DNA of 64,000 nucleotides from Leptotrichia sp. oral taxon 212 (GTDB lineage: Bacteria > Fusobacteriota > Fusobacteriia > Fusobacteriales > Leptotrichiaceae), in NCBI RefSeq assembly GCF_001274535.1, contig NZ_CP012410.1:1585126-1649125 (forward strand). The letters are read 5' to 3'. The translations under genes and the position numbers were made by a program. The notes beneath the pieces are model-generated. The model was not told where the DNA came from. It searched no databases and saw only the letters and a list, made by a program, of their open reading frames with translations. Positions within the stretch are counted from its first letter, which is position 1. Each line of letters opens with the position of its first letter. Positions 6,435-30,319 of the stretch are shown here, piece after piece.

Positions 6435-9400
6435 CTATACATCTACCGAAATTATTCTCGACTCACCTATCTCCTTATTCATAGTAACTCCATAAAGTCT
6501 ATGAGAACCTTTCATTGTTTCCTTATTATGAGTTATAAGTATAAACTGTGATTTAGTTATGAACTTATTTAAGAGCTTGACTATTTTCTTAGTATTTTCC
6601 TCATCCAGAGCCGCTTCAATTTCATCAAAGAAAGTAAACGGACTTGGTTTAAACATAAATATCGCCATTATAAAGGAAACTGCCAGCATTGATTTTTCTC
6701 CCCCTGATAAAAGCATAAGTGTCTGCTCAGGTTTATTTTTATATTTCACGCTCAGTTCCAGTCCTGTTTCCAGCAGATTTTCCTCATCAAGCAGTCTTAT
6801 TGCCCCTTTTGCTCCATTCAGAATAGTTTCACACATATATCTGAAATTTTTATTAATTTCTTCAAGGGCAATATTAAATTTTTTAACTATATCATTTTCA
6901 ATATCCCCAATTAATGTAAGAAGGGATTCCCTACTTGCAAGCAGGTCTCTTTTCTGATTGACAAGTTCAGTATATCTCATATTCTCCCTTTCGTATTCTT
7001 CTATTGCAGAAAGATTTACGCTTCCAATTTCCATTCTACTTTTTTCATTAATAGAGAGTTTTCGCTTTATTGCCTGTAGTTCGGTTTCGTTTTCAATTTC
7101 TTTGTACTCTTCGTTATTTTTTGCTCTCTCCTCAGGAATTTCTTCCAGTTCATAATTATAGGATTCAAGTTTTTTTGTATTTTCAGAAATTTTTTCAATC
7201 AGTTTTCCATATTCGTTTTCCTGATCCCTTTTTTTAATTTCAATATCCTTGACACCTTTTATAAGTTCCTTTTCAGAAACTTCCAGATTTTTTATTTCCT
7301 TTTCAAGAGACTTTATAAGTTCGGATTTTTCCTTGTTTTCTTTGCATTTCTTATCTATCTCTTCCTTTTTATTCTGAATTTCTTTTGTAAGTTTTTCTTT
7401 CATGACAGTTTTTTTCTGCTGAAACTCTTCAACTTCCTTCTTTTCATTAACAAGTTTTTCATAATCAGCTTTTATTTCTGCATATCTTGACTTATTACTG
7501 TCAGTTTTTACTTTTAAGATTTCATATTCCTTATCAAGTGTATTTAATTCGTTGAAATATTCGTCTATATTCTCTGATTCTTCTATTTCAGTATTTAATT
7601 TTACAATATTTATCTTATTTTCTTCTATAAGTTTGACTATATTTTCAATTATCTCAGTATTTTCCCTAATTTTTTCTTTTCTTGAAACTATAAAATCATT
7701 ATTCTGTTTAATCTCATATTCTAATGTTCCAATTTCCCTCTTTCTTTTGTTATATTCAGAATTAAAGTTATCATATTCCTTCAGAAATTCCCTGTAATTT
7801 TCTTCCATTACTTCCAGTTCCTTCTGAATTTTCTGTCTTTCATTTTCCTCTGCTTCTAATATTTTTGATAATTTCTCAAGTTTTTTAGACAATTTTTCTC
7901 TTTCATTCTGAATTTCATTCATTTTTTCCTTTATTACTTTAAGTTCCTTTTTTCTCTCTAACAGTTCATCCTTCCCTCTTACAGAGTAACCTCCCGTCAT
8001 TCTTCCCCTTGCAGTTATTATATCTCCTTCAAGTGTCACAATTCTGTCATTAAAGCCTTCTTTGAGCAGCTGTGTTCCTATTTCAATATTTTTTACTACA
8101 ATTGAATTTCCATAGACAAATTCTACAATTTTTTTTATGTTTTCATCATATCCTACTATATTTCTGGCAAAACCTATGACACCTTCCTTTTTAGGATATT
8201 CATTTAGAATTTTGTACACTTTTACATCTGCAACAGGTAAAAAAGAAGCTCTTCCAAGCTTTTTATCTTTTAAAATACTTATACATTTTTTACCAATATT
8301 ACTATTCTCTACAACAATATCCTGAAAATTCCCTCCAGAAAGTGTCTGTATTGCTTCCTCGTAACCGTCAGGAATATTTATAAGATTTACAAAAGCTCCA
8401 ATAACTCCTTTTATATTTTCCTGAAGTATTGCCTTTGTCGCTCTTGCAAAAGTTTCATTTCTCTCGATTATATTTTCATTTGCCCTTTTTTTAGCATTAT
8501 GATTTTCGTATCTGTAGCTGAGCTCTCCCATCTGCTTATTTATATCTGAATAATGATTTCTTATTTTTTCAGATTTCATACTGACTTCTTTTAAAATCTG
8601 TTCTTTTTCTTTCTTTTCATTTTCCTTCGTAAGCTTATTCTGCTCAAACACTTCCATTCTGTTGACAAATTCAGCAAATTCACTATCCAGTTCTTCCTTT
8701 TCTGTAACTTGTCTTTTCATTACAATTTCAGCAGCGGTAATTCTTTTTTCATATTCTTCATTTTCACTTGCCGCCTTTATTTTATCCACTTCAAAATCTT
8801 GACTTTGCTGTGTCGCTTTTTTCAGTTTTGTCATTAAAACTTCACGCCGTACCTTCAGCTCTTCCACTGTTTCTTCTATCTTATTTTTAGATTTTTCCTT
8901 TTCTGAAAGCTCTTTCATAATTTTTGAAAGTTCTTCTTCAGACTTGGAGAGAATCTCTCCCTTTTCCTTTATATCAGTATCCAGAACCTTATTTCTCTTT
9001 TCCTTTTCTTCAGCCTGAATATCCAGATTAGAAAGCTGACCTGACAGCTTTGAATGTTCATCTTTAAGGCTTTCCACTTCAAGAAAAATTTGCTCATTCT
9101 GATTTTTTTCATTTTCCAGCAGTTCATATTTTTCTTTTTTACTTAACAATACATTTTCTGCTTCTGTATTTTTGTCCTGATATTCCTTCTGTATTTCCGT
9201 AATGACTTTTTCAAACTGGAAACGTTTCATTTTAAATTCTTCGTGCTTTTTTTTCCCTTCATTCCGGTTATATTCTAAAATCATAAACTTATGAGTATCT
9301 ATTTTTTCAGAGAACGTCTTATAAAGCCTTGCTTTTCTTTCCTCTTCCCTTAAATGACCTACTCTTGCTGCCAGTTCCTTTTCAACAAACTCTATCTTTT

Positions 9401-9965
9401 CAATCTCATTTTTTACATCCTTCAGCTTTTTTGTAGAATCTTCCTTTTCCACCTTGGCTCTTTTTACTCCGGCAGCTTCTTCTATAATTTCTCTAAGCTC
9501 TTTTGGATTGGAACTTATTATTCTTTCAACTCTTCCCTGTCCAATTATGGAATAAGCCTGTTTTCCGATACCTGTATCCATAAAAAGATTACTTATATCC
9601 TTTAGTCTTACCCGCCTGTTATTTATAAAATATTCGTTTTCTCCGCTTTTATATATTCTTCTTGTTATTTTTACTTCAGAAAAATCTATGTCAAGATACT
9701 TATCTTCATTTTCAATAATAAGACTGACTTCCGCCATGGAACGTGGTTTTTTATTTTTTCCACCTGAAAAAATAATATCCGAACTTTCCTTAGCTCTTAT
9801 ATTTTTGTAGCTCTGCTCACCTAAAACCCATAAAATTGCATCCAGAATATTGCTCTTACCACTTCCGTTAGGCCCAACTATAGAGGTTATTCCTCTGTTA
9901 AATTCAACAGTTGTCTTTTCAGCAAATGATTTGAATCCTGCAAGCTCCAATGCCTTTAAATACAC
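6435..9965 (-). CDS. smc: Chromosome segregation protein SMC
   Basis: 1176 residues from the preferred GTG at 9963-9965 (ribosome binding site AGAGGAAATCA); a 15-residue longer ATG version would run into the upstream methylase gene. Complete SMC architecture: Walker A GPNGSGKS at 31-38, a first long coiled coil, a hinge at about 500-660 (GVIGAFVNLINIPDGYEEA and the DIITARGRMTGGY that follows it), a second coiled coil, then signature LSGGEKSMLAVSF and Walker B FTFFDEIEAALDEEN. SMC, with ScpAB, compacts and separates the chromosome; scpA and scpB are not nearby. It is the last gene of a long same-strand run and starts 22 bases after the methylase stop. Confidence 0.96.
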   Translation of the reverse strand: MYLKALELAGFKSFAEKTTVEFNRGITSIVGPNGSGKSNILDAILWVLGEQSYKNIRAKESSDIIFSGGKNKKPRSMAEVSLIIENEDKYLDIDFSEVKITRRIYKSGENEYFINNRRVRLKDISNLFMDTGIGKQAYSIIGQGRVERIISSNPKELREIIEEAAGVKRAKVEKEDSTKKLKDVKNEIEKIEFVEKELAARVGHLREEERKARLYKTFSEKIDTHKFMILEYNRNEGKKKHEEFKMKRFQFEKVITEIQKEYQDKNTEAENVLLSKKEKYELLENEKNQNEQIFLEVESLKDEHSKLSGQLSNLDIQAEEKEKRNKVLDTDIKEKGEILSKSEEELSKIMKELSEKEKSKNKIEETVEELKVRREVLMTKLKKATQQSQDFEVDKIKAASENEEYEKRITAAEIVMKRQVTEKEELDSEFAEFVNRMEVFEQNKLTKENEKKEKEQILKEVSMKSEKIRNHYSDINKQMGELSYRYENHNAKKRANENIIERNETFARATKAILQENIKGVIGAFVNLINIPDGYEEAIQTLSGGNFQDIVVENSNIGKKCISILKDKKLGRASFLPVADVKVYKILNEYPKKEGVIGFARNIVGYDENIKKIVEFVYGNSIVVKNIEIGTQLLKEGFNDRIVTLEGDIITARGRMTGGYSVRGKDELLERKKELKVIKEKMNEIQNEREKLSKKLEKLSKILEAEENERQKIQKELEVMEENYREFLKEYDNFNSEYNKRKREIGTLEYEIKQNNDFIVSRKEKIRENTEIIENIVKLIEENKINIVKLNTEIEESENIDEYFNELNTLDKEYEILKVKTDSNKSRYAEIKADYEKLVNEKKEVEEFQQKKTVMKEKLTKEIQNKKEEIDKKCKENKEKSELIKSLEKEIKNLEVSEKELIKGVKDIEIKKRDQENEYGKLIEKISENTKKLESYNYELEEIPEERAKNNEEYKEIENETELQAIKRKLSINEKSRMEIGSVNLSAIEEYERENMRYTELVNQKRDLLASRESLLTLIGDIENDIVKKFNIALEEINKNFRYMCETILNGAKGAIRLLDEENLLETGLELSVKYKNKPEQTLMLLSGGEKSMLAVSFIMAIFMFKPSPFTFFDEIEAALDEENTKKIVKLLNKFITKSQFILITHNKETMKGSHRLYGVTMNKEIGESRIISVDV

Positions 9966-9987
9966 TGATTTCCTCTTTTCTATAAAT

Positions 9988-10854
9988 TTATTTTTCTGTA
10001 AAAATATCATAATTTTTAATATTTTTACTAAATATCATGATTTCTTTAGCTTTTATTTTGTTTTCTAAAGAATAATTTATATCAAATTCTACAGAACTAA
10101 ATTTTTTATAAATTTCTTTAATTTCCTTACAATTATCATATGTGACAATCCAGTTTTTAGTTATTTTTTTTATATCTTCATAAAGCTCTATATGATTTTG
10201 ATGACTATAAAAATTAGTATATAACTCAGGTCCTTTTTTGTAATAGGGTGGATCAAAAAATATGAACTTTTCCTGTTTTATTTTGCTTATTACATTTTTT
10301 TTAAATTCTAAAACATCTAAGTTATAAAATTCTATTTTATCTTTTAATTTTTCGATTTCTTTTATTTGCTCTATTAACTTATTTTTATTAAATCTACAAT
10401 TCATTTTGTAATTTCCGTTTTGCAGATTTCCTCCTATTACACCTGCTTTTAAAATACCAGATCTGTTTACTCTATTTAAATAAAAAGTAGCCATTCCTAA
10501 TTTTAAAATTTCTTTTTCCAATAACAGATTCATATTTTCTTTATTTGCATATATTTCTTTTTGTTTCTCCCGTTCAAGAATAGAAATCTCAATTTTTTCT
10601 ATTATATTACAAAATTTTTCCGTATGATTTAAGATACAATGCCAAAAGGAATAAATACCTCTATCTATATCATTAAGTACCAGTTTTCTTACCTTTTTCT
10701 TTTTTAACAATAATAATGCTAAGCCTGCTCCTCCAGCAAAAGGTTCTATATATATGGGATTTCTAATATCATTTTTTTCAAAAAGAGAAACTATGATATT
10801 AAAAACCTTTGATTTTCCGCCAGGATAACGTAGTGGAGAAAGTAAATTTCTCAT
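9988..10854 (-). CDS. D12-class DNA adenine N6-methyltransferase
   Basis: 288 residues. Class D12 (Dam-type, alpha group) order: PLRYPGGKSK at 7-16 (motif X), EPFAGGAGLA at 37-46 (motif I, AdoMet), NDID at 61-64, FYLNRVNRSGILKAG at about 124-138, and catalytic DPPY at 201-204. All residues needed for methylation are present. The target site cannot be read from the sequence; GATC is typical of Dam, but the LNRVNRSG segment is also found in methylases with other sites. It lies 12 bases after the AAA/TOPRIM gene with ribosome binding site AGGTGG, so the two form a pair. The base composition looks even more A/T-biased than that of smc or the capsule genes (visual impression). Confidence 0.9.
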   Translation of the reverse strand: MRNLLSPLRYPGGKSKVFNIIVSLFEKNDIRNPIYIEPFAGGAGLALLLLKKKKVRKLVLNDIDRGIYSFWHCILNHTEKFCNIIEKIEISILEREKQKEIYANKENMNLLLEKEILKLGMATFYLNRVNRSGILKAGVIGGNLQNGNYKMNCRFNKNKLIEQIKEIEKLKDKIEFYNLDVLEFKKNVISKIKQEKFIFFDPPYYKKGPELYTNFYSHQNHIELYEDIKKITKNWIVTYDNCKEIKEIYKKFSSVEFDINYSLENKIKAKEIMIFSKNIKNYDIFTEK

Positions 10855-10866
10855 AATACCACCTAC

Positions 10867-12507
10867 TTATTTCAGTTTTTCTTTTACTATTCCATAATTT
10901 CTATTTAATTGATTTATCAATTTTCTTTCTAGTTCCTCATTGAATTCTTCTATTTCTTTTTCATACTTTTCTTTAAACTTTTCCATTAATTTATTTCCAT
11001 TTTTTCCAAAATTTTTCCGTTCTTCTAAGAACCATAGTTTATCTTGCTCTCTTTCAGGTTTGCCTAAATTAGTGTACTGTAATCTTTTTGCATAAAATTT
11101 TTGTTTGTTATCACATTTACATTTATCCCAAAATTCATCATTTTCTTCCATACCTAATAAGATTTCCAGACATTCTTTTTCTATTGATTTTATTCCTGGA
11201 AAAAACAATGAATTTCTATGATTTTCAACATTTATTTTAAAATCATTTTTGTAATTTGTACTTTTTCTATTGTAATCTGCATCATAAATAATAATTCCAT
11301 TTTTTAATTGAGAAATTTTATTAGATATAGCTGCTATATTTGTTATCCCTATTTTTAAAGGATATACTTTACAATATTCTTTTAATTTTTTTGAAACAAT
11401 ATTTTTAAAAAGATATTCTCCTTCCTCATCTTCAAAAAATACATCTATTTTTATTTCTTTTTGATTATTATTTTCTTCTCTTATTTTAACTAATATATTA
11501 TTCTTTATTTCATCATAACCTATGTGTATTCTATTTATTAAGCTTCCTCTTGTTTTATCTAAAAAATTTACTTTAGAATTAACACTGTAAATCTTATTAT
11601 TTAAAAGCTCCTCTATTATTTCCAAAGAATGTGTAGTAAAAATAATTTTTATATTATATTTTGCAGAATATTTATTTAGAAATTCAATTAATTTTTTCTG
11701 AGCTCCAGGATATAACGTAGCTTCTAATTCATCAATAAGTAAAATTCCTCCAAAATAATTATCTTTAAATTTCTCTTTTAATCTTTTAAATTCGAGTATA
11801 GTTAATATAATTTTACCAATATTGTCCTGACCAGCAGAAATAGTTTGCCAGTCATAAGAATTTGTTGAAATTCCTCCTGTAGATATTTTATTTTTATCAA
11901 TCAATTTTATTTCATTTTTATATTCTTCACTATCAAAGCTTAATAATATTTCAGAATAATATTTTTTAAAAAAAACTATTTCCTGATCTGATAACTCAAG
12001 ATTGTTTTCTTTTAAATCATCAACTTCTCCAATAGGATATAATCTACTCAATCCCATATAAACTACAGGGAGTGGAATATTTCCTTTTCCAGTTGAACGA
12101 CTTTTTCCAGCAACAAATCTTATATGTTTTTTTTCACCATCAGGTCTTTTCCTTGATTTTACTTGTAATGGATTTTCATAAATAATTTTCTTTTTTACAA
12201 TATCACTATTTTCATCAAAACAAATATAGTAGCTATGATTACCAGGTAAATCATATTCCCTGCTAAATTTAAAAATATCATTTATATCTGTATAAAACTT
12301 TTGGTTTACTATCATACAATCAGAATAATTTTCTTTCTTATCATCTTTTTTTCTTCCTCTTCCTACACCAAAAGGTTGTCCTATACATCCAAGCAATGTA
12401 CTTTTCATTGTTCCATTCTGACCACATATTGCTGTCAAATTTTTTCCTATTTCAATTTCTAAATCTTCTGCTAATCTAAACTTATTAATTATAACTTTTA
12501 GTATCAT
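10867..12507 (-). CDS. ABC-type AAA ATPase fused to a TOPRIM-like nuclease domain (OLD/PARIS-like)
   Basis: 546 residues. The N-terminal two thirds is an SMC/RecF-type ATPase: Walker A GQNGTMKST at 29-37 (Met replaces the usual Gly before Lys), signature SAGQ at 224-227, Walker B ILLIDE at 255-260, H-loop TTH at 291-293. The last 200 residues carry a TOPRIM-like pattern: FFEDEEGE at 357-364 as the glutamate motif and IIIYDADY at about 405-412 as the DxD motif. This order matches OLD-family nucleases and the fused form of PARIS ATPases. Both are anti-phage proteins, but neither is normally paired with an adenine methylase. A restriction-like partner for the downstream methylase is the likely role. 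The domain calls are mine from motifs; the TOPRIM call is the weaker one. Confidence 0.78.
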   Translation of the reverse strand: MILKVIINKFRLAEDLEIEIGKNLTAICGQNGTMKSTLLGCIGQPFGVGRGRKKDDKKENYSDCMIVNQKFYTDINDIFKFSREYDLPGNHSYYICFDENSDIVKKKIIYENPLQVKSRKRPDGEKKHIRFVAGKSRSTGKGNIPLPVVYMGLSRLYPIGEVDDLKENNLELSDQEIVFFKKYYSEILLSFDSEEYKNEIKLIDKNKISTGGISTNSYDWQTISAGQDNIGKIILTILEFKRLKEKFKDNYFGGILLIDELEATLYPGAQKKLIEFLNKYSAKYNIKIIFTTHSLEIIEELLNNKIYSVNSKVNFLDKTRGSLINRIHIGYDEIKNNILVKIREENNNQKEIKIDVFFEDEEGEYLFKNIVSKKLKEYCKVYPLKIGITNIAAISNKISQLKNGIIIYDADYNRKSTNYKNDFKINVENHRNSLFFPGIKSIEKECLEILLGMEENDEFWDKCKCDNKQKFYAKRLQYTNLGKPEREQDKLWFLEERKNFGKNGNKLMEKFKEKYEKEIEEFNEELERKLINQLNRNYGIVKEKLK

Positions 12508-12532
12508 AGTTCCCCCAAAATTTTAAATAAAA

Positions 12533-13816
12533 TTATCTCCCTTTTCCAAAAATAACTATCGTCACTGTTTTTAACAGAACTTTTACATCAAATGGAATAC
12601 TATGATGCTTTATATAGTACAGATCATACTGCAATTTTCTGTAGGCATCTTCAACACTTGCACCATAAGGATACATCACTTGCGCCCATCCTGTCAGTCC
12701 AGGTTTTACAGTATGTCTTAAATTATAGTATGGTATTTCCTTTTCAAGCTGCTGAATAAAAAATTCCCTTTCAGGACGAGGTCCGACAAAGCTCATTTCT
12801 CCTCGTAGAACATTCCACAGCTGAGGCAGCTCATCAATTCTTGTGGCTCTCATTATTTTCCCAAACTTTGTCACCCTGTTATCATTTTTCGATGCCCATT
12901 GAGGTCCATCTTTTTCAGCATCTGTAGTCATAGAACGGAATTTCACTATGTTAAATTTCTTATTCCCCTCTCCTATTCTTTCCTGTATAAAAAATATTGG
13001 CCCTTTAGATTCAAGTTTTACTATTATTGCAGCAAGTATAATTACCGGCGCCGCAAATATTCCTATCAGCATTGCAAAAAACAGATCCAGCAGTCTCTTA
13101 GCCTTAAGATTGAAATTGTTATGATATATTTCAAAACCTGTATTCTCGAGAAACCATTTTGGGCTTAAATGAGATATGGGTAGCTTATTTTCATACGTTT
13201 CATAAAATTCCAGATAGTTGTAGTATTGCAACCCTTCAAGCTTATATTGCAGCAGTTTTCCCGTAAGTTTAGGATCTCCCAGAAGTTTATCCGTAAAATC
13301 TACAAGAACGTCAAATTTCTTTGTTTTATACATTTCAACTATTTCTTTTCCAAGCGCCTTCGTATCAGTGTTATTTAATGATGCGGCAAATACATACTGT
13401 CCATCCTTTTTTACACTTTCAAGTAAATCCTGTGTGTAGTCATTTTCTCCGACAAAAACAACATGTTCCTTTTCAACTACTCCCATAATGACTATATATC
13501 TGAACGCTATCTGAAATATTGTTATTATTCCGAAAAGTATAATTCCTTCATAAAAAGTGAATATTTTAGAAAAAGTTGTAACAGTCATTAAAATTCCGTT
13601 TATTACAATTACCGTTGTCATATCCTTAAGCTTATACTTGTTTGTTGCTACATTATATACATTCGCTATATAGTAGGCAACCAGGGCACTGACTATTATC
13701 ATTGCATTTCTGAATCCCAGCCCCCTGTTTATTATAACCAGTCCAATAAAATACATTGCTACTGTCAATATTCCAAATAAATAGGAAAAATTTTTTCTTA
13801 CTCCGCTTATGGCCAT
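12533..13816 (-). CDS. Undecaprenyl-phosphate sugar-1-phosphate transferase (WbaP/EpsL-type)
   Basis: 427 residues from the ATG at 13814-13816, which has AAAGGTGG upstream; a GTG 15 bases earlier lacks room for a ribosome binding site. Four N-terminal membrane spans come first, then a nucleotide-binding-like middle (VVFVGENDYTQDLLESVKK), a fifth span, and the bacterial sugar transferase domain from about residue 240: KRLLDLFFA, FFIQERIGEG, NIVKFRSMTTDAE, TRIDELPQLWNVLRGEMSFVGPRPER, LRHTVKPGLTGWAQV. The family moves a sugar phosphate from UDP-sugar to the lipid carrier and starts a capsule or O-antigen unit. It is the last of the polysaccharide genes, and only 25 bases separate it from the ATPase gene. 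Confidence 0.92.
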   Translation of the reverse strand: MAISGVRKNFSYLFGILTVAMYFIGLVIINRGLGFRNAMIIVSALVAYYIANVYNVATNKYKLKDMTTVIVINGILMTVTTFSKIFTFYEGIILFGIITIFQIAFRYIVIMGVVEKEHVVFVGENDYTQDLLESVKKDGQYVFAASLNNTDTKALGKEIVEMYKTKKFDVLVDFTDKLLGDPKLTGKLLQYKLEGLQYYNYLEFYETYENKLPISHLSPKWFLENTGFEIYHNNFNLKAKRLLDLFFAMLIGIFAAPVIILAAIIVKLESKGPIFFIQERIGEGNKKFNIVKFRSMTTDAEKDGPQWASKNDNRVTKFGKIMRATRIDELPQLWNVLRGEMSFVGPRPEREFFIQQLEKEIPYYNLRHTVKPGLTGWAQVMYPYGASVEDAYRKLQYDLYYIKHHSIPFDVKVLLKTVTIVIFGKGR

Positions 13817-13888
13817 ATTTCTATTTCCCACCTTTACATTTTTACTTTATTGTTATCTCATTATATTTTATAATTCTGTTCTGTCAGT

Positions 13889-23479: not shown

Positions 23480-26400
23480 CTAGTAAATAGCTCTGAATCC
23501 TATTCCTCCTCTTACATTCTTACCTTTCGTATCATATCCTCCGTTTAATGTTACTCCGAATCTCTGGTTCTCTATTCCGATATTTAAGTCCGCTTTAAAG
23601 TTTCCTTTTCTGTCGTCCTTCTCGCCTCTTATATTAAACCAGTCTGTATCCGTATATGATACTTTTGCCATGTTCTTTACATTTCCTACTTTTCCTAGCT
23701 CATTTTCATAACCTAGTCCTAATGTTGTCACAAATGTTGTTTTTACTGCCATTGGCTGTCTGTAGCTAAATTCCACTCCTACTTCCGGTCTTATTGAGTA
23801 GTAGTCGTTTCCTTTTACGTCAAGTCTCATTTCTCCTGACTTCTCCTTGATTGTAGTAAATCTTCCATATTCAAGTTTTAAGCTTCCGTATGGTCTTATG
23901 CTTGTTCTTTCACTTGTTCTTATATTATATCCCAGTTCATTCTTAACTGCCACTCCATATGTTGTATAGTCTGACTTCGCATTGAAGATTTCATCAACTA
24001 CAAGATACTTTCTGTGCATATCATTTCTTGATACATATCCTTCTCCTGATATTGTCCATCTCAATGATCCGTTATGATCTGCAGCCGGCGACATTGTCTT
24101 GAAGATTCCAAGTTTTAACATTGTCTGGTTTTCTTTTGATTTTCCTATGTCCTTGAACTTGAATCTGTTATGTACCGCTCCTGCATACCATCCTGAGCTG
24201 TTTCCAAGTTTAACTGTTTCATCTTCATGTAAATATGCAAATCCGTATGCATTACTTGTGTAGTCTATTATTCCTGCAGTATCTGTCTTATATTCATCTC
24301 TCATTCCAAAGGCTTTTATCTTGTTGGACTGCTTAGACTTAGTATCCCACTCTTTAGATAAATGTGTAATTTCCTTATCAATAAGTCTTCCTGTTCCATA
24401 TGTTCTCTGCTGTACATTTGCATACTGGTGTCCCATCATTTCATCTATTGCCTGGAAGAACAGTGTCTGTTCATTTTTACCAATTCCATTTAATTTCTGG
24501 AATAGCTGATTTTCCCTTGTCCCGATAGCTTCTACTCCATATCTCTGTTCTAGACCATCTAAGAAATTATACGTGTCTTTAACTTCCACTGGTGTTGCTT
24601 CATTTCCTGCCCAATGAGTATATGGAACTTTAGCCAAATATGCACTCTGCATAGTTCCATCAGTTTGATTTTGTGTAACAGTTGACATCCAAGTTAATGA
24701 ACCTGCATAGATATTCCATTTTTTAATTTGTGGATTTTTCTTTATCATTTCATTATATGGTTCCAATATTCTTTGATCAACTTGTATGTATTTACTTGTT
24801 GTACCTTGTGCCGCTTCATTACCCATTATTAAATCAGCCGCTGTCAATCCGGTTAATGCACTCAGACCGTTAATAGGATTAGTAAATCTCTTATTAGATG
24901 TATCTATGTACATACCAATTGTTGATAACTGCATATCTTTATACTCTTCAGCAGTTGTTGTTGCCAATGTTGGAACTACTGGTTTTCCATTTACAGTTAT
25001 AGTTCCGACAGTCGAACCAGCAGGTACATCTATTTTAACTCCACCCATTCCTTTTCCTAAATCCTGTCCTCCAGAAGCTGTTTTTATAACTGTCGAATCA
25101 TTAGGGTCTGTAACTCCATTGATATTGAAAGTTCCATAGTTCTTAACTATACCAGGATTTGCCCCAGCTGCATTTCCTTTAGATAAAATTCCTAGTGAAT
25201 CTTCTGCTGTTAATTCTATTTTTCCCCAGTTTTCTATTGTAGATCCATTTTTAACAACTACTCCCGCTAATTTCTTTAATCCACTACCATTAGATCTAAT
25301 TGTACCATAGTTATATCCATAAGCTCCGTTATCCAGGTACATTCCAGTAGTATTGCTTGCACCCAAGTTAATTGTTGCTGTTGAACCTGGTGCCGTACCA
25401 TTGTATACTTTAGTACCAGCCTCTGTTCCATACATTCCTATACTATATTCACCAGTTACATTAATAGTACCTTCATTAACTACATTTCCTGTGTATGCCT
25501 TTGCCGGGTTACCATCTCCATTAAATCCGGCTGCCATACCTACTGCATATCTATTATTTAATGAATTATTAGGATCTATATATGAAGCTCCTACTGTTAC
25601 TGATCTTCCAGACAAGTTTGTTGCAGTTCCACCATAAGTACTATAAATTCCCACATTTCCCATTCCACTTCCAAAGTTTATATCAGCATTATTTGTTACT
25701 GTTCCTGCTGAATACAGACCATAGTTATACGAACCTGTTGATGTCAATGTAGTATTGTTATTTACAACTCCTGTTCTATCGTTTGAATAAATATATGTTC
25801 CATCATTTCCTAATGCCTGACTTGCAACATTACTATTTATAGTATTTCCTGTTCCTTCATTCAGGAAACCGAATGAGCTGTCTCCTATTGTCATAGTACT
25901 TCCTGCATTTGCAGTTATTGTTTGTCCAGCACCTTTTGTGAAAACTCCTACAGCTTTATTAGCTCCTGTATTTATCTTACTTGTTGAATCTAAAGTAACA
26001 TTTCCACCTTCACTGTATAATCCTGTTCCACCATTACCAACAGTTATTGTTCCTTTTTGTACTATTTCTTTTCCAAAAATACCAACTGAATTATCTCCAA
26101 CAGTTACTGTTCCTGTATTTGTTATCTTGTCTCCAGCTTGTGTTAATATTCCTACACTTGGTTTAGAAGCTGTCAATGGATTTGTTAAAGTTATATCACT
26201 TGTATTTTCTACTTCAGCTCCATTTGATATAATTCCATAACCTTTATCTCCTGTTATTTTTGCATTATTAGTCAGTTTTCCACCACCAGCTGTGTAAACA
26301 CCTATAAGTCCTTCAGTAGTTCCAACAGTATCTGTCAGTTTCACATTAAGAGTATTTAATAAGTTTGCTCCTGTTCCACCTTCATAAAATAGACCTACTC

Positions 26401-29400
26401 CTGTTCCAGCATTTGAACCACTATATTTTAATTCAAGTGTATTTGAACCGGATGGTATTATATTACTTCCATCATTCTTAACAAATACCCCTGTTCCTCC
26501 ATCTTTTACTTCTACTCCATAATCTGAATTAAATCTTACTGGTGATTTTTCAGCATAAACACCTATACCTTTTTTGCCAACAACTATATCTGAACTTCCT
26601 GTTCCTGTCAAGTTAACTGTTGCTCTCTTAGAAACTATACCTACCGCTTCGTCTCCTGTTAAAGTCAATTTACCATTGTTAGTTATACTTCCATTTGAAG
26701 AACTTAATAAACCTGATGTTCCGTTTGTATCTCCGTATAATCCTACAGATTTATTTCCATTAACTGTTATTTGACCTTTATTTATTATTTCAAATGTTTT
26801 ATCAGCAGCTATTAATGTACCGTCAGTAATCTTCTTATCAGTTCCATAAGTTTGTAGTGTTCCTGCAGATGTAAATGCAGCCATTCCGACACCTTGAGTA
26901 GTAACATTAATTGTACCTGTTGCTTCATTTGTTAGTGTACTTCCATTTATTCCATAGGCACCGATTCCTTCATTTACATTAATAATATTGTTATTATGTA
27001 TCTGTCCATAGCTGATGTTAAGACCTATTGTTCCTGCCGCTAAAGTTCCGCCATTTATATCGACAGTTCCATTATTTATGAATTGAGTCTTACTGTTGTT
27101 TCCATCAGTATTAGCAGAATCATTAGATCCCATTGCTAAACCTTTTCCTACTGTCGAACTAACTGTTTTATTAGTATTAATAGTAACAACTTCCCTTGAT
27201 AATCCTACTTTATTAAAGTCATCAGATGTATTACCTACATCAATATTTGAATCTATATCAAATTGTCCATTGATGTAGTAAATCTTATATTTATGTCCAT
27301 TATCATTAAAAGAAGCTACTTTCATAGCAGTTTGAACCAAATTTGCTATTGTTGTTCCATCCCATATTTTATGTATTCCATTATTTGAAGCCAGAACTAC
27401 ATTATCTCCTGTAAGATTTACAGTTACATTAGACATTCCTGTATATTTTGCTGTTCCTGTTATTCCTGGTGCTGTTAAAGCTGCTGCAGCATAATCATTG
27501 GCAGTTCCCGGAATTAATATACCATGTGATATATTTAATGTTGTAGTTCCTGTAAAATTAATACGTGAACTAGCATCAGCATTAAATGGAGTTGATGAAT
27601 CATGATCTTTTGCTTCATTTTCTGAGTGGGTTATTGTTCCTCCTCCAAAATTAACTCTTCCTCCATTTGTTGCAACTAATGCTCCTGATTTACCAGTTTT
27701 AATTGCATTAGCACTTCCATTTAAATTAGCTACTGCATTTGCACCTGATGCCATTGCACCAATACCATAAATATCAGCATTTCCTGTTACATTTACTGTT
27801 CCATTTGCTCCCGCATAAGCCCCAATATTATTATATAAATAAGGTTTTGTTGCAGCATCCTGTGCAGCGGCTCCATCTTTTGCAACAATATCTTTTTCTG
27901 CATTTACTACACCATTATTTTGTGCTAATGCCACTATTGAAGAATATCCTAATGCAGTTACTTTTTCTTTTGCAGTTACTATACCTTTATTATCCCCTAT
28001 TAAAGCAACTGATCTGTTTAATTTATTAGAAGAATCTAATTTTGCTCTTCCTGTCATAATTACTGGTTTATATAGGTTGATTTCACTTGGTTTATTTACT
28101 AACCCTGCTGCTGTTCCACCAGGCATACCTGTATTATTCCATACTCCAGTTGAATAAGCTATAACTGTTCCTGTTGCCGCCTGGTTTGCTGTATCATCAT
28201 AAGAACTTGTTACATCTGTTGCTGCATCTCTTATTTCTGTAGAAGGAGTAACTTCAGTATATGCTGTTCTTGCTAAATTTTTATCAGCTTTATCAGGTCT
28301 TGCCACATCAATTACTGACCCTTTATCTGCAGCAAACATTATACTATCAGTTGCATGCTTACCAAAATAAATTTCTGTTTTTGCCACTTCAAGATTATGT
28401 ATTTTATCTATATTATAATCAGGGAGACCTCTTGAAACATGTCCAGGTTTTCTTGTACTAGCATCACTTTCTGCATATCCTTTTGCTTCTGTTCTTTGTG
28501 CTGCTGTAGGCGTTCCTAAGTCTGTTTCAGGAACTATTCCTTCTCTTTGACCTGATCTGGAATATACTCCCACGTTTCCTGTTGAAGCTGAATTTTCTCC
28601 AACTTTCATTCCTACTGCTACTTCTCCTTGATAAATTCCTATTACACTTGGTCTCCAACCATCTGCAGTAAATGTTCCTCTAGTACCAAAAGGAAGAAGT
28701 CCTCCTGTTTGAAAATCACTATATCTATTTTCAAAAAATAATCCAACATTTGAATTTCCATCTACATTTATTTTTCCTGTTCCAAGACCTAATTGAATAC
28801 TTGGCGTCATATTTGTATTTGGGTCACTTGTAACATCTCCACTTCCCTTAAGATTTTGCCAGTTTGGAGTATAACCTATTCCTAAGTAAGCGAGGTTTCC
28901 ATTACCTTTTATATCATAATCTCCTGAATTATCTAACTTAAATGTCCCTTGAACTCCCATAACACTATGGATATAGTTATTATTTGCATTTATGTTTACT
29001 TTTAAGTTTCCTGAATATCCACCTCTTTGATTATATGAATGATAGTCCACATTATCTATTCCCATTGTATAGTATGAACCTGGATAACCAAAAAATACAC
29101 TATTATATTCATTTTTAACAGTTACTGTTGAACTGTTAATTGTAACATTTCCATTATGCCAAGTTTCTGCTGCAATAAAAGTTGCATATCCATGTAGTCT
29201 TACATTTACATTTGTTATATCTCCATCCCATACTGTATGCATTGCTGAGGTTCCCTTTGGATTCCAACCAGGGTTTCCAGCTACATCAGCATTAACATTT
29301 TTAAATGTCCATCTTATACCTGTTACCTGATTTCTATCTACTGCATTCAAATAAAATAAATTTGGAACTCTACCTTGAACTGCTGCTAAAGTATTTCCAG

Positions 29401-30319
29401 TACGATACCATTGTGAATGTTCATCTAGACTATTAGTACCTGGATTCCAACCCGACCAGTAATTCAGACCTAATCCGTCTTGATTCTTAGCTGGACGTGA
29501 AACCCCCCATGCATTTTCACCTGTTATACTTCTACCATTAAAATTATATTGAACAGTAGGATTAATAACTATATTAGGTGTTTTATTTGGTGCTACTATT
29601 GCTTGTGGTGTAGGTATATCCAATGATGGCGGCAATAAATTAGGTACATTTAACGCCTGTAACACTGGTGCGGACACATTTACAGTAGGAGCTGCTACAG
29701 GATCTCTGTATACATCTTTTGGTCTAATTGACGCATCAACGTTCATTACTGTTAAAGGTTCCTGTTTTGGTGTTGTACTTGCAATACCATATCCTGAACC
29801 TAATCCACCTCTAGATGTTGTCGAAGCTGAAAATGGATTGGTTGATGTAGGTAATAATCCGTAGTTTGGACTCTCTGGAGAAGTATATCTTTCAAAAGGA
29901 TTTGCACTTCTTTCAAATATTCCTTCATAAGGATATTTCTGTTTTTTATCCCCTCTACCTTTGTAAGTTCCTCTCCAGTCACTGTAGAAATAGTTCATTC
30001 CAAACTGCCATGAACTCCATGGAGATTTAACTACATGGTCTCCCTGTTCCATTAACTGTATTAACTCAAGGTTTGAATTCTTCATAAGTTTATTGTTTTC
30101 ATGTTTTGCTTCCTTAAAAAGCTTCTTCATATCTGTTATCGATGTCTGAAGTCCTCTTCTTGCCTGTTCTACACTATCTATTTCTCCTACTGAAAACGAC
30201 ACCAGTCCTGTCAAAAGAAATGTAAATAATAATGCTGAATTATATTTTACATCCTTACATCTTTTAGCAAATCCTCTTAACTCTTTTTCTATTCTTTTCA
30301 GATTGTTATTCATAATCAT
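23480..30319 (-). CDS. Large type V autotransporter adhesin
   Basis: 2279 residues. An extended signal (NNNLKRIEKELRGFAKRCK then LLFTFLLTGLVSFS) is characteristic of fusobacterial autotransporters. A conserved head follows (SPWSSWQFGMNYFYSDW, YPYEGIFERSANPF), then a Pro/Asn-rich segment. The passenger, about 270-1950, is rich in Asn, Thr and Gly and made of short beta-helix-like units such as NGGTVNITG and GIGVYAE. The last 300 residues are the beta barrel, ending in GGIGFRAIY with a terminal aromatic residue. By family it is an outer-surface adhesin (compare RadD/Fap2 of Fusobacterium). It is the last gene of the six-gene run, 30 bases after ompA. No cleavage site can be named. Confidence 0.93.
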   Translation of the reverse strand: MIMNNNLKRIEKELRGFAKRCKDVKYNSALLFTFLLTGLVSFSVGEIDSVEQARRGLQTSITDMKKLFKEAKHENNKLMKNSNLELIQLMEQGDHVVKSPWSSWQFGMNYFYSDWRGTYKGRGDKKQKYPYEGIFERSANPFERYTSPESPNYGLLPTSTNPFSASTTSRGGLGSGYGIASTTPKQEPLTVMNVDASIRPKDVYRDPVAAPTVNVSAPVLQALNVPNLLPPSLDIPTPQAIVAPNKTPNIVINPTVQYNFNGRSITGENAWGVSRPAKNQDGLGLNYWSGWNPGTNSLDEHSQWYRTGNTLAAVQGRVPNLFYLNAVDRNQVTGIRWTFKNVNADVAGNPGWNPKGTSAMHTVWDGDITNVNVRLHGYATFIAAETWHNGNVTINSSTVTVKNEYNSVFFGYPGSYYTMGIDNVDYHSYNQRGGYSGNLKVNINANNNYIHSVMGVQGTFKLDNSGDYDIKGNGNLAYLGIGYTPNWQNLKGSGDVTSDPNTNMTPSIQLGLGTGKINVDGNSNVGLFFENRYSDFQTGGLLPFGTRGTFTADGWRPSVIGIYQGEVAVGMKVGENSASTGNVGVYSRSGQREGIVPETDLGTPTAAQRTEAKGYAESDASTRKPGHVSRGLPDYNIDKIHNLEVAKTEIYFGKHATDSIMFAADKGSVIDVARPDKADKNLARTAYTEVTPSTEIRDAATDVTSSYDDTANQAATGTVIAYSTGVWNNTGMPGGTAAGLVNKPSEINLYKPVIMTGRAKLDSSNKLNRSVALIGDNKGIVTAKEKVTALGYSSIVALAQNNGVVNAEKDIVAKDGAAAQDAATKPYLYNNIGAYAGANGTVNVTGNADIYGIGAMASGANAVANLNGSANAIKTGKSGALVATNGGRVNFGGGTITHSENEAKDHDSSTPFNADASSRINFTGTTTLNISHGILIPGTANDYAAAALTAPGITGTAKYTGMSNVTVNLTGDNVVLASNNGIHKIWDGTTIANLVQTAMKVASFNDNGHKYKIYYINGQFDIDSNIDVGNTSDDFNKVGLSREVVTINTNKTVSSTVGKGLAMGSNDSANTDGNNSKTQFINNGTVDINGGTLAAGTIGLNISYGQIHNNNIINVNEGIGAYGINGSTLTNEATGTINVTTQGVGMAAFTSAGTLQTYGTDKKITDGTLIAADKTFEIINKGQITVNGNKSVGLYGDTNGTSGLLSSSNGSITNNGKLTLTGDEAVGIVSKRATVNLTGTGSSDIVVGKKGIGVYAEKSPVRFNSDYGVEVKDGGTGVFVKNDGSNIIPSGSNTLELKYSGSNAGTGVGLFYEGGTGANLLNTLNVKLTDTVGTTEGLIGVYTAGGGKLTNNAKITGDKGYGIISNGAEVENTSDITLTNPLTASKPSVGILTQAGDKITNTGTVTVGDNSVGIFGKEIVQKGTITVGNGGTGLYSEGGNVTLDSTSKINTGANKAVGVFTKGAGQTITANAGSTMTIGDSSFGFLNEGTGNTINSNVASQALGNDGTYIYSNDRTGVVNNNTTLTSTGSYNYGLYSAGTVTNNADINFGSGMGNVGIYSTYGGTATNLSGRSVTVGASYIDPNNSLNNRYAVGMAAGFNGDGNPAKAYTGNVVNEGTINVTGEYSIGMYGTEAGTKVYNGTAPGSTATINLGASNTTGMYLDNGAYGYNYGTIRSNGSGLKKLAGVVVKNGSTIENWGKIELTAEDSLGILSKGNAAGANPGIVKNYGTFNINGVTDPNDSTVIKTASGGQDLGKGMGGVKIDVPAGSTVGTITVNGKPVVPTLATTTAEEYKDMQLSTIGMYIDTSNKRFTNPINGLSALTGLTAADLIMGNEAAQGTTSKYIQVDQRILEPYNEMIKKNPQIKKWNIYAGSLTWMSTVTQNQTDGTMQSAYLAKVPYTHWAGNEATPVEVKDTYNFLDGLEQRYGVEAIGTRENQLFQKLNGIGKNEQTLFFQAIDEMMGHQYANVQQRTYGTGRLIDKEITHLSKEWDTKSKQSNKIKAFGMRDEYKTDTAGIIDYTSNAYGFAYLHEDETVKLGNSSGWYAGAVHNRFKFKDIGKSKENQTMLKLGIFKTMSPAADHNGSLRWTISGEGYVSRNDMHRKYLVVDEIFNAKSDYTTYGVAVKNELGYNIRTSERTSIRPYGSLKLEYGRFTTIKEKSGEMRLDVKGNDYYSIRPEVGVEFSYRQPMAVKTTFVTTLGLGYENELGKVGNVKNMAKVSYTDTDWFNIRGEKDDRKGNFKADLNIGIENQRFGVTLNGGYDTKGKNVRGGIGFRAIY

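Follow-up and report, generated by a model that had tools for sequence, protein, structure and literature searches.

We analyzed a 64,000-nucleotide stretch of the genome of Leptotrichia sp. oral taxon 212 (contig NZ_CP012410.1; hereafter, “the window”), in which two minus-strand genes separated by 12 bp lie between a capsule gene and smc (Table 1). One encodes a D12-class N6-adenine DNA methyltransferase (hereafter, the methylase) and the other an OLD-type ATPase with a TOPRIM-like C-terminal domain. Both open reading frames had been singled out by a first-pass annotation made from the sequence letters; we find them where that annotation placed them, each with Pfam support. Elsewhere in the window, positions 23480-30319 encode a repeat-rich autotransporter-like protein of 2,279 residues.

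Table 1. Features of the methylase-ATPase locus (window coordinates)
Feature	Coordinates	Strand	Basis or remark
D12-class N6-adenine DNA methyltransferase, 288 aa, PD-lambda-5_B family	9988..10854	-	PF02086, PADLOC
Methylase SAM-binding motif I EPFAGG, residues 37-42	10729..10746	-	E37, G41, G42 invariant; P38 in 98/101
Methylase catalytic motif IV DPPY, residues 201-204	10243..10254	-	Invariant, 101/101
OLD-type ABC ATPase with TOPRIM-like C-terminal domain, 546 aa	10867..12507	-	Pfam AAA_15/AAA_21, PHROG 3940, AlphaFold2, Foldseek
ATPase Walker A (GQNGTMKST), residues 29-36	12400..12423	-	G29, N31, K35 invariant in 101 homologues
ATPase ABC signature SAGQDN, residues 224-229	11821..11838	-	S224, G226 invariant
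ATPase Walker B ILLIDE, residues 255-260	11728..11745	-	D259, E260 invariant
ATPase H-loop TTHS, residues 291-294	11626..11637	-	H293, S294 invariant
ATPase first acidic motif E359-D360	11428..11433	-	Invariant in 101 homologues
ATPase second acidic motif D409-x-D411 (D409-A-D411)	11275..11283	-	Invariant in 101 homologues
TOPRIM-like core, residues 354-435	11203..11448	-	beta354-358/E359; beta379-383; beta405-408/D409xD411; beta433-435; helices between strands
Capsule sugar transferase (WcaJ-like), left neighbour of insertion	12533..13831	-	64-81% identical, same place in G011, G017, G010, G009, G006, G015, G001
smc, right neighbour	6435..9965	-	Own ribosome binding site, GTG start ~9965
Segment exchanged relative to G011	10884..12540	-	Nucleotide identity profile

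The methylase matches Pfam MethyltransfD12 (PF02086, E = 5.8e-23), and its best match in the defence library is PADLOC PD-Lambda-5_B (PDLC04018; 369 bits, E = 2.9e-111, residues 1-283). The larger protein matches Pfam AAA_15 (E = 1.8e-13) and AAA_21 and, over its full length, PHROG 3940 (308 bits), a family whose function is not known. Among PADLOC defence models, its top match is the retron I-B ATPase-Toprim, aligned to residues 240-528. When that model was run against the window's genome, the window ATPase scored best, and among the matches listed it was the only one to reach profile position 439, the others stopping by ~283. By family and by fold, the 546-residue protein is an OLD-type ABC ATPase. 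The Walker A, SAGQ signature, Walker B, H-loop and E...DAD elements reported in the first-pass annotation are all present, and their key residues are invariant in a set of 101 diverse homologues of the ATPase, each taken with its adjoining methylase; in this set the invariant columns of the ATPase are those of the ABC motifs together with R11, R155, E359, D360, D409 and D411. The catalytic motifs of the window methylase are intact, and its dN/dS against the orthologue in G011, a genome of a related genus, is 0.115. For an E. coli/phiNP version of the pair, dN/dS is 0.07 and 0.13 for the two genes. The methylase, and both genes of the E. coli/phiNP pair, are under purifying selection.

The C-terminal domain of the ATPase had been read as TOPRIM-like, and part of this reading stands. 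In an AlphaFold2 model of the protein (mean pLDDT 88.9, pTM 0.78; pLDDT 88.5 across residues 338-546), the C-terminus forms a small beta/alpha domain and then a helical bundle. E359 follows beta1 of the beta/alpha domain and D409-x-D411 follows beta3, which is the TOPRIM order of strands and acidic residues. With the full-length model, Foldseek returns the OLD nuclease TsOLD as the best PDB match (6p74, E = 7e-13), as well as retron Eco8, GajA and PtuA, at low global TM-scores (~0.3). The isolated domain, however, has no significant Foldseek match in the PDB (best E = 0.22; weak Rossmann-like, CheY-like and TIR matches), no Pfam TOPRIM model including PF20469 matches the window ATPase or the isolated C-termini, hhalign gives no alignment across the TOPRIM region with PF20469-bearing OLD proteins, and a PDB sequence search with the C-terminal profile yields only spurious weak matches. 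On the other side, the retron I-B ATPase-Toprim model picks up 10 of the 101 isolated C-termini (best 1.4e-6), one of the 101 family members has a DUF4435 Pfam match, and hhalign of the C-terminus against DUF4435/AriB, though too weak to build on (P = 0.021), brings the E and DxD residues into register. We regard the domain as probably TOPRIM-like and not as proven TOPRIM; its invariant acidic residues suggest a centre that probably cuts nucleic acid. The same genome also encodes a separate OLD protein (a 686-codon frame) that contrasts with the window ATPase in carrying a genuine PF20469 TOPRIM (G000:C1:1835081-1835296; L266).

The pair was acquired by insertion upstream of smc, as had been proposed. 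Two relatives (G017 and G010) present the empty site, in which the capsule sugar transferase is followed directly by smc; an epimerase-like gene separates the two in four others (G009, G006, G015 and G001), and in the window's genome and G011 the ATPase-methylase pair occupies this position. The expectation that smc keeps its own ribosome binding site is also borne out: an AGAGGA element precedes a GTG start at ~9965, 22 bp past the methylase stop, and the ATG-started smc frame overlaps the methylase solely through an upstream in-frame ATG. The smc start (window 9963-10010) is GTG in both genomes with the insertion and ATG in the inspected relatives without it, and the insertion may have altered this region.

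How general the arrangement is can be judged from its neighbourhoods. In initial searches of phages, plasmids and the genomes of relatives, a D12 methylase adjoined every real homologue of the ATPase. A survey seeded with the ATPase alignment alone, covering one genome for each of 84,980 prokaryote species together with IMG/VR, returned 160 loci, which collapsed at 80% identity into 126 clusters, 121 of them with usable flanks. A D12 methylase lies within 3.5 kb in 109 of these 121 clusters (87 bare pairs and 22 accompanied by the ParB-like PD-lambda-5_A), a proportion to be read with the caution that methylase-linked members made up the seed alignment, so that the family definition may be biased. 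The bare pairs are compact, with both genes on the same strand in 84 of 87, a gap of at most 100 bp in 78 of 87 and a median gap of 27 bp. By comparison, a D12 methylase was found at none of 25 control loci for ATPases of other families, within flanks of ~1.5 kb. The coupling of a methylase to an OLD-like ATPase, claimed at first from the single locus, is thus a recurrent and syntenic association and not a one-off new arrangement: the family is widespread, its methylase is already catalogued as PD-lambda-5_B, and PD-lambda-5_A is sometimes part of it. A search of IMG/VR with the single ATPase sequence gave 16 pattern matches and no relatives, whereas the alignment query did retrieve relatives.

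The remaining 12 of the 121 clusters have no nearby D12 methylase, some lying beside an m5C methylase or type I restriction-modification (R-M) genes and several beside neither, so not every member of the family depends on methylation. At two loci (L071, 5031-5876; L089, 8508-9590), the ATPase adjoins an apparent 5-methylcytosine methylase with a PCQ motif in place of the D12 enzyme. A set of prophage ATPases with an N-terminal extension (L144, L183, L185, L187, L188, L197, L198 and L208) likewise lacks the D12 methylase and, as seen in the four inspected, sits directly downstream of a phage-repressor-like gene; these form a possible methylase-free branch. At a Fusobacterium vincentii locus (L007, 5001-7499), the ATPase is truncated to 371 residues next to an intact methylase, which may reflect decay of the effector with retention of the methylase.

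The pair is mobile and widespread. It occurs in temperate phages of Streptococcus, Vibrio and Citrobacter, on plasmids of Nicoliella and Psychrobacter, and in E. coli prophages, both beside integrase genes and at the P2 hotspot. Its hosts include Fusobacteriota, Bacteroidota, Bacillota, Pseudomonadota and the archaeon Methanococcoides, among others. In E. coli, the pair occurs as three lineages, carried by 85, 15 and 7 of 5,426 complete genomes, or ~107 carriers (~2%) if the three sets do not overlap.

The methylase ties this family to PD-lambda-5, an E. coli prophage system that blocks phages (Vassallo et al. 2022, PMC9519451) and that was described by its discoverers as a compacted, prophage-borne form of an RM+Abi system (PMC9519451). 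That system was tested in an mrr-deleted host (PMC9519451), which fits an active foreign methylase. The window methylase belongs to the family of component B, the position of PD-lambda-5 in E. coli P2 prophages, between the replication endonuclease and portal genes, is taken in other strains by the methylase-ATPase pair, and the 22 clusters mentioned above carry PD-lambda-5_A as a third component. The difference is in the partner, since the OLD-type ATPase of the window is no catalogued PD-lambda-5 component. Component A is ParB-like: the A models recognize a gene at locus L042 whose annotation is ParB/Srx. The window ATPase is absent among the best 25 of 66 PD-Lambda-5_A matches listed, whereas a true A protein matches 25 such models, and we found no PD-lambda-5_A relative beside the pair or elsewhere in the window's genome in a search run without a positive control. 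On these searches we reject plain PD-lambda-5, no component A having been found and the ATPase not being A. One methylase family accordingly occurs in three architectures: with A, with the ATPase (as in the window), and with both. Within the order, the ATPase closest to that of the window (L011, 45% identity) comes from a three-gene locus. In five loci (L049, L050, L052, L053 and L057), a shorter, diverged ParB-like protein of ~410-420 residues with a YDGNRRIILGKIK motif lies between the ATPase and the methylase; proteins of this kind, found downstream of the ATPase mainly in Bacteroidota, constitute a separate PD-lambda-5_A subfamily.

The comparison with G011, which carries the pair at the same site, shows that the two genes can have different histories. 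The methylases are 85% identical, whereas the ATPases share 31% identity over the BLAST-aligned part and 25% over the whole alignment. At the DNA level, identity is ~84% from ~10884 through the methylase into smc and ~81% on the capsule-gene side; across the ATPase gene it is mostly 41-60% per 100 alignment columns, which is chance-like for A+T-rich DNA. Since the flanks and the methylase align so well and the ATPase gene does not, the ATPase has been exchanged in place for a distant relative while the methylase stayed. A second swap is seen between L113 and L078, which share 91.5% DNA identity over exactly the cassette of PD-lambda-5_A and methylase (2.3 kb, from 5 bp before gene A to the methylase stop) and have ATPases that are 30% identical. 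Identity between methylases only weakly tracks identity between ATPases over the 101 pairs (Spearman 0.19; permutation maximum 0.13). In a classical type II system, the endonuclease would need site recognition matched to that of its methylase, so a nearly unchanged methylase beside ATPases that are 25-31% identical argues against such recognition in the ATPase. The ATPase is probably the changeable sensing or effector part, one that does not read the methylase's site, and the site specificity is probably carried by the methylase, along with the ParB-like PD-lambda-5_A where present.

Several known systems resemble the pair in part. OLD nucleases of class 1 (TsOLD), class 2 (Gabija GajA) and class 3 (retron Eco8/I-B) likewise join an ABC ATPase to a C-terminal acidic E...DxD domain within a single polypeptide; the window pair differs in having a methylase in place of a helicase or reverse transcriptase, and in leaving PF20469 unmatched. 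Gabija itself is ruled out, as there is no UvrD/PcrA-like helicase GajB and the neighbours of the ATPase are the methylase and the capsule sugar transferase. In PARIS (AriA and AriB), an OLD-type ATPase is combined with a TOPRIM nuclease, and the anti-restriction protein Ocr acts as the trigger (PMC9122126, PMC12839542). The window ATPase shares with PARIS the OLD-type ATPase and a TOPRIM-like centre, with catalytic residues weakly aligned to DUF4435, but is a single chain with a methylase partner; PARIS is ruled out by the lack of a DUF4435 match in the window's genome and by AriA models that cover the ABC domain of the ATPase alone. WonAB, which is found in a prophage, and PD-T4-4 are two-gene defence systems that pair an OLD-ABC ATPase with a PD-(D/E)XK nuclease (PMC12137116); the present pair is also built on an OLD-ABC ATPase, but theirs has a separate nuclease subunit and no methylase. 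As in type II R-M, an adenine methylase adjoins a putative nuclease, with the difference that this nuclease would be an OLD-type ATPase whose sequence is exchanged independently of the methylase. In the open-access literature that we searched, we found no description of the ATPase-D12 methylase pair; earlier mention elsewhere is possible.

Taken together, these observations lead us to favour, at somewhat better than even confidence, a mobile two-gene immune module of OLD type that is gated by methylation, and the restriction-like logic suggested in the first-pass annotation is plausible in this light. From its context, namely the prophage hotspots and the known defence family of the methylase, we infer that the pair very likely acts against phages. 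The methylase, whose motifs would permit it, would place N6-methyladenine at a particular sequence of the host chromosome. The ATPase, probably a dimer, would be kept inactive by the methyl mark or through contact with the methylase; incoming unmethylated phage or plasmid DNA would release it, and its acidic centre would then cut nucleic acid. Both trigger and target could vary between ATPase lineages. A more specific version, which we put forward tentatively and rate well short of an even chance, is that a self-marking core (the D12 methylase, alone or together with the ParB-like PD-lambda-5_A) is served by OLD-type effectors that lack sequence specificity and are exchangeable in place.

The main rival reading, which we think unlikely although it deserves serious consideration, is a guard resembling PARIS. 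The ATPase-nuclease would watch the methylase or the methylation state and kill or arrest the cell (abortive infection) when a phage anti-restriction protein or phage takeover disturbs it, with no restriction of unmethylated DNA as such. The composition and Ocr trigger of PARIS described above speak for this reading, as does the alignment with DUF4435/AriB, which is the sole weak profile match of the C-terminus to a known TOPRIM. The ATPase swaps beside one methylase would suit fast-evolving sensors, and the RM+Abi description of PD-lambda-5 points in the same direction. However, most clusters consist of the pair alone, with no other R-M system in the loci inspected, and the linkage of methylase and ATPase is far tighter than the guarding of a pre-existing R-M system would need.

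Addiction-module behaviour is possible in classical R-M systems, and the tight operon and the carriage on plasmids and prophages could likewise be explained if the ATPase were toxic to its carrier and the methylase served as an antitoxin or immunity factor, the pair thereby promoting addiction and maintenance of mobile elements and not defence. We consider this improbable, as relatives without a nearby methylase imply that some hosts tolerate the ATPase alone, and phage defence has been demonstrated for the family of the methylase (PMC9519451). Finally, the broad methylase family also occurs in phages without the ATPase, but chance co-location of an orphan Dam-like methylase (regulatory or for phage counter-defence) with an unrelated ATPase, to which we give almost no credence, is in practice ruled out by the neighbourhood survey (109 of 121 clusters, in the same order and strand and in many phyla, versus 0 of 25 controls).

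If our reading is right, PD-lambda-5, a proven defence, would be tied to the OLD nuclease superfamily through a common methylase, and the two clean natural swaps would show that one effector can give way to another with the self-mark left as it was. It could then be asked in E. coli whether an OLD-type effector senses methylation by itself, via the methylase, or via the ParB-like protein; the ~107 E. coli carriers mean that laboratory-tractable versions of the pair exist. If, more specifically, the effectors are exchangeable and lack sequence specificity of their own, self/non-self marking would be separable from killing, and this methylation-based system would belong neither to R-M types I-IV nor to BREX.
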